DNA of 37,265 bases from positions 1 through 37,265 of the forward strand of contig RFXU01000003.1 of the NCBI GenBank assembly GCA_009921505.1, written 5' to 3'. Below, in pieces: positions 14,985 through 31,316 of the stretch. The notes under the pieces are model-generated. The model had not been told where the DNA came from. It searched no databases and saw only the letters and a list, made by a program, of their open reading frames with translations. This stretch comes from Flavobacteriaceae bacterium. Its GTDB lineage: Bacteria; Bacteroidota; Bacteroidia; Flavobacteriales; Flavobacteriaceae. Each line of letters starts with the position of its first letter. Position 1 is the stretch's first letter. The position numbers were made by a program, and so were the translations under genes.

Positions 14985-16412
14985 ATGGGGAGAACTGCGG
15001 AAACAGTTTGGGGAAATTGCTTGTCATTTATCGAAGACAATATTTCTACGCAAGCCTATAAAACCTGGTTCGAACCGATCAAAGCGGTTAAACTTGTGGA
15101 CAATGCCTTAAGCATTCAAGTTCCGAGTAAATTCTTTTACGAATGGCTGGAAGAGCATTACGTAAAACTCCTCAAAGTTTCTTTGACTCGTGAATTAGGG
15201 GCAAAAGCAAAATTGGTGTATATCATTAAGATGGAAAACACCTATGGAAACAAACAACCCTTTACTGAAAAAATCCCAAGCGCTAATAGAGGTCAACTTA
15301 AGGATCAGGAGGTCGACGTGCCGCTGAAGCACAAAAGCCCTGAGCTAAAAAACCCTTTTGTGATTCCTGGGATCCGTAATGTAAAAATTGAATCCCAGCT
15401 CAATCCGAATTATAATTTTGAGAATTTCTTAGAAGGCGACTCTAACCGACTGGCTCGTTCTGCAGGTTATGCCGTGGCAAACAAACCCGGAGGCACTTCT
15501 TTTAACCCATTACTTATTTTCGGAGGCGTCGGTCTAGGAAAAACCCATTTGGCGCACGCGATTGGGGTAGAAATCAAGGAAAAGTATCCAGAGAAGACCG
15601 TATTGTATATCTCTGCAGAAAAATTTACGCAACAATACATTGAGTCTGTTAAAAAGAACAACCGAAACGACTTTATTCACTTCTATCAGATTATTGATGT
15701 TTTGATTGTTGATGACATTCAGTTGTTGTCAGGTAAAGCAGGAACACAGGATGTTTTCTTCCATATTTTCAATCATTTACACCAAAACGGAAAACAGGTT
15801 ATCCTTACAAGCGATAAGGCCCCTGTGGACATGATGGATATTGAACAGCGCCTGCTTTCAAGGTTTAAATGGGGGCTTTCTGCCGAACTCAATCATCCAG
15901 ATTACGAAACTCGTGTGGCTATAATTAAAAATAAACTCTATCGCGATGGTGTTGAAATGCCTGAAGAGATTATTGAGTTCTTGGCCAACAACATCAAAAC
16001 AAATATCAGAGAACTCGAGGGCGCAATTATTTCGCTCATAGCCCACTCTTCATTTAACCGAAGAGAGATCACCATCGACCTGGCTAAGAAAATCGTTGAT
16101 AATTACGTCAAGCATACCAAACGCGAGGTTTCTATAGATTACATTCAAAAAGTAGTCAGCGAGTATTTCCAAATGGATGTGGATACCTTACAGTCAAAAA
16201 CCAGAAAACGACATATCGTTCAGGCGCGACAATTGGCGATGTTCTTTGCCAAAAAGTTCACCAAAGCCTCTTTGGCCTCCATTGGGTCTCAAATCGGCCA
16301 AAGGGATCATGCCACAGTGCTACACGCCTGCAAAACGGTGGACAATCTATCCAGCACTGATAAGCAGTTTCGAAAATACGTCGAAGACTTGAATAAAAAA
16401 TTAACCCTATAA
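14985..16412 (+). CDS. dnaA: Chromosomal replication initiator protein DnaA
   Basis: NPLLIFGGVGLGKTHLAHAIG, VLIVDDIQLLSGK, C-terminal GQRDHATVLHACKTV. Confidence 0.98.
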   Translation: MGRTAETVWGNCLSFIEDNISTQAYKTWFEPIKAVKLVDNALSIQVPSKFFYEWLEEHYVKLLKVSLTRELGAKAKLVYIIKMENTYGNKQPFTEKIPSANRGQLKDQEVDVPLKHKSPELKNPFVIPGIRNVKIESQLNPNYNFENFLEGDSNRLARSAGYAVANKPGGTSFNPLLIFGGVGLGKTHLAHAIGVEIKEKYPEKTVLYISAEKFTQQYIESVKKNNRNDFIHFYQIIDVLIVDDIQLLSGKAGTQDVFFHIFNHLHQNGKQVILTSDKAPVDMMDIEQRLLSRFKWGLSAELNHPDYETRVAIIKNKLYRDGVEMPEEIIEFLANNIKTNIRELEGAIISLIAHSSFNRREITIDLAKKIVDNYVKHTKREVSIDYIQKVVSEYFQMDVDTLQSKTRKRHIVQARQLAMFFAKKFTKASLASIGSQIGQRDHATVLHACKTVDNLSSTDKQFRKYVEDLNKKLTL

Positions 16413-27848: not shown

Positions 27849-27916
27849 CCCACGATTTGCGATAACCTCTGGCGATAGACGTGAATGTTGCGCAAACTAA
27901 ACAAGATGCATAAAAC

Positions 27917-28267
27917 ATGGAATCTTTAATCAAATTTGTTCAAGACGAATTCGTAACAAAAAAGGAATTTCCTGAGTTCTCAGCGGGAGATACCATTACG
28001 GTTTACTACGAAATCCGTGAAGGTGAAAAAACGCGTACTCAGTTTTTCCGCGGAGTCGTAATTCAGGTAAAAGGAACAGGAAGTTCAAAAACTTTTACCA
28101 TCAGAAAAATGTCAGGTACTATTGGTGTAGAACGTATTTTCCCAATTAATTTACCAGCATTACAAAAAATTGAAGTCAACAAACGCGGTAGTGTCCGTAG
28201 AAAACGTATCTACTACTTCAGAGAATTGACCGGTAAAAAAGCTAGAATTAAAGAAAAGAAATACTAG
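27917..28267 (+). CDS. rplS: 50S ribosomal protein L19
   Basis: FSAGDTITVYYEIREGEKTRTQFFRGVVIQ, TIRKMSGTIGVERIFPINLP, VRRKRIYYFRELTGKKARIKE. Confidence 0.98.
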   Translation: MESLIKFVQDEFVTKKEFPEFSAGDTITVYYEIREGEKTRTQFFRGVVIQVKGTGSSKTFTIRKMSGTIGVERIFPINLPALQKIEVNKRGSVRRKRIYYFRELTGKKARIKEKKY

Positions 28268-28289
28268 TTTTTATTCAGCCAAAACTTCT

Positions 28290-28320
28290 AAAGGCAGTCC
28301 AGATAAGGGCTGCCTTTGTT
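28290..28320 (+). terminator. rplS terminator
   Basis: AAAGGCAG-tccagataaggg-CTGCCTTT followed by GTT. Confidence 0.75.
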
Positions 28321-28379
28321 ATTTACAATTGTTGATAACCCCAGTTAAAAAGCTGTTGTTATTTACCCCCTTCAAAAAT

Positions 28380-28955
28380 TTTGTAAATTCAAAAAGCTCA
28401 GTACTTTAGAACCATCAAAGCGAGACTAATCGCTGCGATATTAAGCAACGTTCTTAAATATACTTTCATGAAAAAAGTCAATTTCTGCACTAGGGGATTT
28501 TGGCCTTTTTATTGAAAGGTGAGTCGGTTCCCCTTCAAGGCGAAGTTTGAGAAAATTGATCGGCAAAAGCTGCCACCAGCAAAAGCACTAGCAATAGAGC
28601 CTGCAAAAGTCAGCGAAACAGTAATATCTGACTAGAAATAGAACAGAATTACAGAAAGCCATGTTCAACGCATCAAAAAGAGGATTCAACGAGGCTGAAA
28701 AGTTTATTAGAAGCAGCAATGTATCTAAGGACGAAAGCCCAAAAGAAAAAACCTCAGGTGTGTCAGGAGCAAGATTTAGTTATCATGCCCCTGTTATCAA
28801 ACCTCAAAATCCTTTTGGGAATGTCGCTTAAAAAGCAAGTCACAATTGCGGGGGTTTAATAAACCTGCTTCAAACCGTAAAGGTTAATTGGTAACGGCTA
28901 GACTCACAAGGAGCCATATCAAAGTATTCGTACGATGATATGGCTTTTCTTGTTT
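28380..28955 (+). other. Orphan transcription-unit candidate (structured RNA, small proteins or decayed gene) between rplS and icd
   Basis: Bounded by the rplS terminator and its own 10-bp terminator. Contains hairpin AGTCAG..CTGACT (28608-28633) and short ORFs; no recognisable family. Confidence 0.35.
28661..28831 (+). CDS. Small ORF, 56 aa, no recognised family
   Basis: MFNASKRGFNEAEKFIRSSNVSKDESPKEKTSGVSGARFSYHAPVIKPQNPFGNVA*, ending ~80 nt before a terminator hairpin. Confidence 0.3.
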   Translation: MFNASKRGFNEAEKFIRSSNVSKDESPKEKTSGVSGARFSYHAPVIKPQNPFGNVA

Positions 28956-28957
28956 TT
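28912..28957 (+). terminator. Terminator of the orphan locus
   Basis: AGCCATATCA-aagtattcgtacga-TGATATGGCT (10 bp) followed by TTTCTTGTTTTT. Confidence 0.75.
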
Positions 28958-29018
28958 GGCCCCCTCTACTTAGGCTCAAAAAAAGCGTTTTTTTGCATTA
29001 CGCTTCTGCTTCATTTTT

Positions 29019-29049
29019 TTGAGGCCTTCATCCCTATTCACTATATTTG
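29019..29049 (+). promoter_or_regulatory. Putative icd promoter TTG-N20-TATATTTG
   Basis: TTG 29019-29021, TATATTTG 29042-29049. Confidence 0.65.
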
Positions 29050-29090: not shown

Positions 29091-31316
29091 ATGAATTCAA
29101 CCCCTGATATCTATTATACCATTACCGACGAAGCTCCTTTTTTAGCCACCTATTCACTTTTACCAGTGGTTCAGAAATTTGCAAAACACGCTGGAATAAA
29201 TATTGATACGGCAGATATTTCTTTAGCGGGGCGTATTTTGGCTAGCTTCAACGATTATCTGAATGAAGACCAAAAAACAACAGATGCGCTGCACATGTTG
29301 GGAGAATTGGCAAAACGACCCGAGGCAAACATCATAAAACTTCCAAACATAAGTGCTTCGATGCCTCAGCTTTTAAGTGCCATTGAAGAACTTCAAAATA
29401 AAGGCTATGCCATTCCTGATTATCCTCATCAGCCACAAAACGATAAGGAACAGGCCATTAAAGCAACCTACGACAAAATAAAAGGAAGCGCGGTTAATCC
29501 CGTCTTAAGAGAGGGAAATAGCGACCGCCGAGCACCAATGGCCGTGAAAAATTTCGCTAAAAAGCACCCCCACAAGATGGGCGCTTGGCAGGAGGGCTCA
29601 AAGACCAGAGTAGCCACCATGAACCGTGGGGACTTTTTTCACAATGAACAATCAAAGACTTTTGCTGAGCCCAATGCCTTGAGTATTGTGTTAAAATCCG
29701 ATACAGGAGCGCAAACGTTTTTAAAAGATAATATTAAGGTCCTTCAGGGAGAAATCGTCGATGCGTCATTAATGCAGCGCCAAGAATTAACAAAATTCTT
29801 GAGCGACTCGATTGATCAGGCGCAAAATGAAAAGCTTTTACTCTCATTACATATGAAGGCGACCATGATGAAGGTAAGCGACCCTATCATCTTTGGTCAT
29901 GCGGTAAAAACGTTCTTCGCGCCAGTTTTTGAACAATACGGAAGCGTTTTCAAAGATTTAAACGTAAACGTAAACAATGGATTTGGTGATCTAATCAGTA
30001 AAATTCAAAATCTTCCACAGGATCAAAAAAACGCTATAGAAAAAAGTATAAAGGATTGTTACAACAATCGTCCTGACCTCGCGATGGTAAATTCGGACCA
30101 AGGAATCACGAATCTCCACGTACCGAGCGATGTAATTATCGACGCCTCGATGCCTGCCATGATCCGCAACTCGGGTCAGATGTGGGATAAAGATGGGGCT
30201 GTCCAAGACACATTAGCCGTTATCCCGGACAGTTCATATGCTGGGGTGTATCAAGCGACTATCGATTTTTGCAAGGCACATGGTGCCTTTGATCCAGCTA
30301 CAATGGGAACCGTCCCCAATGTTGGCTTAATGGCTCAAAAAGCTGAAGAATATGGTTCTCATGATAAAACATTTGAGATAGACCTCGCGGGTCAAATTCA
30401 GGTTTTAGACCAGCAGGGCAATACGGTATTTGCATTTCAAGTTCAAGCTGGAGATATCTTCAGGATGTGTCAGGTTAAAGATGCTCCAGTTCAAGATTGG
30501 GTTAAATTAGCCGTTTCAAGAGCGAAAGCCACCGGTTGGCCAGCTGTGTTTTGGTTAGATGAGCAACGTGCGCATGACTTTGAGTTAATCAAGAAAGTTC
30601 ATCTTTACCTCGAAGATCATGACACCAAAAATTTAGAGTTAAAAATTCTCGCACCTCAAAAAGCTACAGAATATACCCTGGAGCGTTTGGCCCGCGGGGA
30701 AAATACAATATCGGTTACGGGGAACGTACTGCGTGATTACTTGACCGATTTATTTCCAATTTTGGAGTTAGGAACAAGTGCTAAAATGTTATCCATTGTT
30801 CCCTTAATGAACGGTGGTGGTTTATTCGAAACGGGCGCTGGAGGCTCTGCGCCAAAACATGTCTCTCAATTCACTTCAGAAAATCACCTCAGATGGGATT
30901 CTCTCGGAGAATTTTTGGCGCTCGCTGTGTCTTTTGAACATTTTGGTGAAAAAAACAATAACCAAAAAGCCATTATTTTGGCAGAGGCCCTTGATAAAGC
31001 CACAGAAAAATTACTCGATCAGCAAAAGTCTCCCTCGCGTAAAGTGCACGAATTAGATAATCGGGGCAGTCATTTCTACCTTGCTCTTTATTGGGCTGAG
31101 GCTTTGGCCCATCAAGATAAAGATCAAGCCTTAAGCGAACACTTTAGTCCTATTGCTAAAAGCTTATTAACGCAGGAGCAAACCATCGTAAACGAACTCA
31201 ACCAAGTGCAGGGACATCCCGTAGATATAAATGGCTATTACGCCCCAGATATTCAAGCGGTCACCCAGCATATGCAGTGCAGCCTAACCTTTAATCAAAT
31301 ACTCAAAGGAATTTAA
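29091..31316 (+). CDS. icd: NADP-dependent isocitrate dehydrogenase, monomeric type
   Basis: 741 aa. [59 protein letters not shown]-like [16 protein letters not shown]. Confidence 0.97.

Follow-up and report, generated by a model that had tools for sequence, protein, structure and literature searches.

A probable stand-alone structured RNA gene between rplS and icd in Flavobacteriaceae

What is encoded in the approximately 590 nucleotides that follow the rplS terminator in this flavobacterial genome and contain no long open reading frame? The window, by which we mean the whole 37,265-nt stretch of contig RFXU01000003.1 that was analyzed, carries this region between rplS and icd (Table 1). A first-pass annotation had placed the rplS terminator at 28290-28320, a 10-bp terminator hairpin at the far end of the region and an icd promoter further downstream, and had offered a structured noncoding RNA, a small-protein gene or a decayed gene as possible contents. 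These landmarks were recovered. The rplS terminator is at 28289-28318, the longest open reading frame in 28330-28960 has 56 codons, the hairpin arms AGCCATATCA and TGATATGGCT lie exactly at 28912-28945 and are followed by U-runs, and the -7 box of the icd promoter is located beyond them. The RNA strand folded better than all 20 of its shuffled versions (z -4.8). Judged from sequence, the locus is very likely a real noncoding RNA gene, the first of these options: it is conserved in many genera, its base pairs covary, and it has a promoter and a terminator. The full description, a stand-alone, sigma-A-transcribed, trans-acting structured RNA gene, we consider probable.

Table 1. Positions of the RNA element, its parts and its neighbors in the window.
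Feature	Position	Strand	Description or basis
rplS	27917..28267	+	upstream neighbor; Pfam PF01245
rplS terminator	28289-28318		3' of rplS, before the RNA element
Conserved block upstream of promoter	28325..28365	+	spaced direct repeats of (T/G)GTTNATAA
Repeat copies	28330-28338; 28343-28351; 28354-28362	+	TGTTGATAA (first copy); other two degenerate
Promoter, sigma-A type of Bacteroidetes	28381..28409	+	-33 TTG 28381-28383, 18 nt, -7 TACTTTAG 28402-28409
Predicted RNA gene, ~540 nt	28414..28957	+	conserved start ATCAAA and conserved terminator; ends predicted
P1 hairpin	28420..28433	+	GCGA-GACTAA-TCGC; 4/5 pairs changed on both sides in A2 homologs
P2 hairpin	28441..28457	+	TTAAG-CAACGTT-CTTAA; loop CGTT(C) nearly invariant
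P3 helix	28462..28520	+	ACTTTC.../...GAAAGGT around CACTAGGGG segment; genus alignment
Variable middle	28540..28813	+	GNRA-loop hairpins CTAGCAATAG (28588-28597), CTAGAAATAG (28632-28641), CAGCAATG (28714-28721); window genus
Three-way junction	28843..28890	+	closing helix CAATT/AATTG; hairpins 28848-28868 (loop GGTTTAATAAA) and 28873-28885
Segment GGTAACG	28890..28896	+	3' of junction; GGTAA invariant in A1 and A2
Rho-independent terminator	28907..28957	+	CAAGGAGCCATATCA...TGATATGGCTTTTCTTGTTTTT; alignments, covariation, pattern control
icd promoter	29042-29049		-7 TATATTTG; 3' of RNA-element terminator
icd	29091..31316	+	downstream neighbor, monomeric isocitrate dehydrogenase; Pfam PF03971

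The element is conserved beyond the species. A DNA search located it in the rplS-icd interval of each of the seven congeners, and also in that of further Flavobacteriaceae genera. Running the exact terminator pattern over 257 billion bases of genome contigs identified at least 117 stretches, and all 117 of the matches listed adjoin rplS and/or share a short contig stretch with icd. Among the matches listed with rplS in view, 412-799 nt separate the rplS stop codon from the start of the terminator. Hosts among the matches listed include Zobellia, Maribacter, Arenibacter, Cellulophaga, Gelidibacter, Psychroserpens and Winogradskyella, as well as Algibacter, Eudoraea, Muriicola, Aequorivita, Kordia and Leeuwenhoekiella. 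Within the family, the strict terminator pattern was present in 86 of 400 genomes (57 of 237 genera), and the reversed pattern, used as a control, had no matches in the same 400 genomes. A covariance model of the 3' domain matched 219 of the 400 at E<=0.01, a number that may be inflated because two weak matches of the model in an order-wide scan (in genus g148 and family f5) proved to be unrelated simple terminators when read. The true frequency of the element is probably between 86/400, the conservative figure, and 219/400. Genus g148 is probably Flavobacterium, since no other genus in the sample has as many species. Its gap from rplS to the next gene, icd in most cases, is only ~200-280 nt and does not contain the RNA element. 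The adjacency of rplS and icd is therefore broader in distribution than the RNA. In other genomes without the element (G027, G030 and family f5), other genes follow rplS.

The first-pass annotation had overlooked two features of the locus: a promoter belonging to the element itself and, upstream of that promoter, direct repeats that form a conserved block. When approximately 30 homologs were aligned at the predicted start, they shared TTG, a spacer of ~18-20 nt, TAnATTAG or TAnnTTTG, and then ATCAAA. The sigma-A consensus of flavobacteria is TAnnTTTG (PMC9723704), and the promoter of the aligned homologs matches it. At the other end, CAAG...CTTG pairs lengthen the terminator hairpin to 28907-28952, and U-runs occupy 28945-28948 and 28953-28957. 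A consensus terminator scanner did not list the 28912-28945 hairpin, probably because of the scanner's loop limit of 8 nt. At the sequence level, the element has both the promoter and the terminator of its own that mark a noncoding RNA gene.

These features bear on two readings that would attach the element to a neighboring gene. Its position directly after rplS in most genomes would fit a 3'-UTR-derived or processed RNA of rplS that is not a separate gene. However, in the window and in the aligned homologs, the rplS terminator and then the sigma-A-type promoter come before the element, and the gene upstream of the element is not rplS in some members, making such an origin quite improbable. 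The element could also be a cis-acting leader or attenuator of icd, with a transcript that runs into icd and the 28912-28945 hairpin as a conditional terminator. It lies directly before icd in most genomes, and the distance from terminator to icd is 91-386 nt in most of the matches listed. Against this, icd has a promoter of its own after the terminator; the distance from element to icd is 576-950 nt in 14 counted loci and 6.1 kb in one, sometimes with another gene in between; in genomes that lack the element, icd still comes after rplS, across just a short gap; and no alternative antiterminator pairing was seen. We regard a leader function as unlikely. The element behaves as an independent gene, since its upstream gene is not rplS in some members and it is 0.6-0.95 kb from icd in others.

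The block of repeats upstream of the promoter is found in relatives as well, in the form AACAATTGTTAATAACNNNNGTTCATAANNTGTTGAT. Sampling of 800 kb in two relatives gave a three-copy cluster of the repeat only in the rplS intergenic region of one. The TGTTNATAA repeats resemble DnaA boxes, and dnaA itself (window 14985-16412) is ~12 kb upstream of rplS, which would be compatible with a DNA element, either a replication origin or a cluster of DnaA boxes, in place of an RNA. But the GC skew of two complete relatives flips elsewhere and not at the rplS locus, the conserved parts carry compensatory changes of the RNA type, and the repeats precede the promoter and are not part of the RNA. A DNA element is very improbable. 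A replication origin was rejected on the GC skew of the two complete genomes, and no box cluster was found in the sampled stretches outside the rplS intergenic region.

Evidence for an RNA gene also comes from the fold. We analyzed two alignments, A1 (the 3' domain of the window clade, 25 sequences) and A2 (full-length short homologs, 22 sequences). In A1, 95% of cells were paired and 22 pairs were changed on both sides, compared to 10.7 in shuffled alignments; in A2, the values were 98% and 19 pairs, compared to 10.3. None of 500 shuffles of either alignment reached the observed pairing, number of double changes or covariation score. Slid controls were 30-42% paired for A1 and 30-49% over A1 and A2 together. 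Four parts make up the A2 fold: the hairpins P1 and P2, a three-way junction whose three helices covary, and the terminator. In the three-way junction (helices 2-4), 13 of 14 pairs had changes on both sides. The GGTTTAATAAACC segment pointed out earlier (28853-28865) is present and falls within a hairpin with strong covariation. The stem sequences of P3 differ in the genus alignment yet stay complementary, as judged by eye.

P2 is common to all clades, with a loop, CGUU(C), that is nearly fixed while the stem varies. Among 95 homologs there were 17 types of P2 stem, with 6.02 of 7 paired, compared to 5.64 (sd 0.08) when shuffled. Clades III (Maribacter/Zobellia type) and IV (Psychroserpens/Gelidibacter type) retain the P2 loop, the terminator and a covarying structure. 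Compensatory changes were present in 22 of 55 predicted pairs in clade III and in 31 of 84 in clade IV, where the predicted fold includes a long-range helix. Homology between clades rests on the locus, P2, the terminator and the upstream block, and not on one alignment of the whole RNA.

The same patterns of conservation bear on coding potential. An ATG-started open reading frame of 56 amino acids (28661-28831) does exist in the window, and it or a similar frame could be a small-protein gene. This frame is in the least conserved part of the locus, with no full-length counterpart in congeners and short fragment matches in one of them; none of the small open reading frames of the locus is conserved or has a Pfam match, and the conserved parts carry compensatory base pairs. 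A protein product is very improbable. The suggestion of a decayed gene fails because such a gene would not keep the compensatory base pairs found here.

In the window genus, both ends of the RNA are 94-97% conserved, and the middle (28540-28813) is 27-68% conserved in 25-nt bins. The AGTCAG/CTGACT hairpin of the first-pass annotation is present (28608-28613/28628-28633) and is inside this poorly conserved middle. GNRA hairpins are above the shuffle level in several members. We considered the idea that the RNA is a sponge acting through these hairpins and rejected it: members have anywhere from 0 to 5 of them, and in clade III there is almost no excess over shuffles. Hairpins of the CTAGCAATAG type are repeated inside the RNA of the window genus, with several in loci L007 and L086 and one, TTTAGCAATAAA, in L008/L009, which suggests internal duplication of a module.

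We compared the element to known RNAs using Rfam release 15 (4227 models), searching the window at the gathering threshold, the locus at E<=5 and nine homologs drawn from several clades at E<=1. The sole significant match was the L19-Flavobacteria ribosomal leader (RF03130), and there was none for the RNA element or the nine homologs. This leader, at window 27863-27890 and above the gathering threshold, belongs to the same locus but is a separate 29-nt cis leader located 5' of rplS. Like the element, RNase P RNA (RF00010), tmRNA (RF00023) and 6S-Flavo RNA (RF01685) are intergenic structured RNAs of these genomes. In 11 element-carrying genomes they were found elsewhere; tmRNA was over the cut-off in 10 of the 11, and the match in the window genome was weak (27 bits, below the cut-off).

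OLE, ROOL and GOLLD are large structured bacterial RNAs whose function is unknown or was recently assigned. The element resembles them in being stand-alone and several hundred nucleotides long, with an elaborate covarying fold and no open reading frame. It differs from them in sequence and host group, in the lack of an Rfam match at a useful score, in its size of ~300-690 nt and in a middle that varies by lineage. Another conserved, strongly folded flavobacterial RNA is Rfp18, a small RNA of Flavobacterium psychrophilum reported for the genus Flavobacterium (PMC9723704). A comparison of loci speaks against Rfp18 being the element: the rplS-icd gap of g148, probably Flavobacterium, does not contain such an RNA. 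In Rfam and the literature searched, we found no description of the element. The element is best called a new family within a known kind, the large structured bacterial noncoding RNAs of unknown function.

How might such an RNA work? From its gene anatomy, the element is likely to act in trans, and its transcript may be a folded regulatory or scaffold RNA. Near-invariant single-stranded motifs (the P2 loop CGUU(C), the GGUWUAAUAAA loop and GGUAACG) would be displayed on a rigid body made up of P1, P2, P3 and the three-way junction, and may contact a protein partner or target RNAs. Such contact sites are suggested because the near-invariant loops sit in a covarying frame; the invariant motifs had no covariation that would point to a partner. 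The middle of the RNA would expand in some lineages and contract in others, and the repeat block that precedes the promoter could be a binding site that controls transcription. Any specific contact, such as a pseudoknot of the P2 loop, is a tentative assignment at best. The P2 loop and GGUAACG (CGTT with AACG) are complementary in most members. We treat their pairing as a guess, since it is not backed by covariation and in several members one side is disrupted with no compensating change. It is possible, but rather doubtful, that the family is an RNA machine, that is, a single-copy 300-690 nt RNA with a conserved three-dimensional architecture (three-way junction, GNRA hairpins and invariant loops) in mostly marine Flavobacteriaceae, acting as a dedicated RNP or riboregulator with transcription set by its own repeat array.

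Marine Flavobacteriaceae rank among the main degraders of algal polysaccharides, and to our knowledge few regulatory RNAs have been described from them. A large RNA that is absent from Rfam and found at one locus across Zobellia, Maribacter, Arenibacter, Psychroserpens and Gelidibacter is likely to have a selected role. The element occupies a fixed address as a single copy, its start and stop are precisely predicted, and some lineages naturally lack it, so its function is open to deletion tests in genetically tractable Flavobacteriaceae.

Several loci had unusual arrangements. In three (L233, L238 and L230), the gene after rplS appears, as recognized by eye, to encode a different type of isocitrate dehydrogenase and not the monomeric enzyme, an apparent in-place replacement of icd by a non-homologous enzyme. 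Two contigs titled Candidatus Rokubacteria (OMJU01000036.1, L049) and Chlorobiota (JAADHG010000093.1, L034) carry a flavobacterial rplS-RNA-icd region and are probably mislabelled or contaminated bins. At locus L144 (genome G032), rplS is followed by another terminator, TGCCCATGAGAAAG...CTTTTTCATGGGTA, and the repeat block occurs a second time further along. This may be a much diverged version of the element, with one or two related RNAs.
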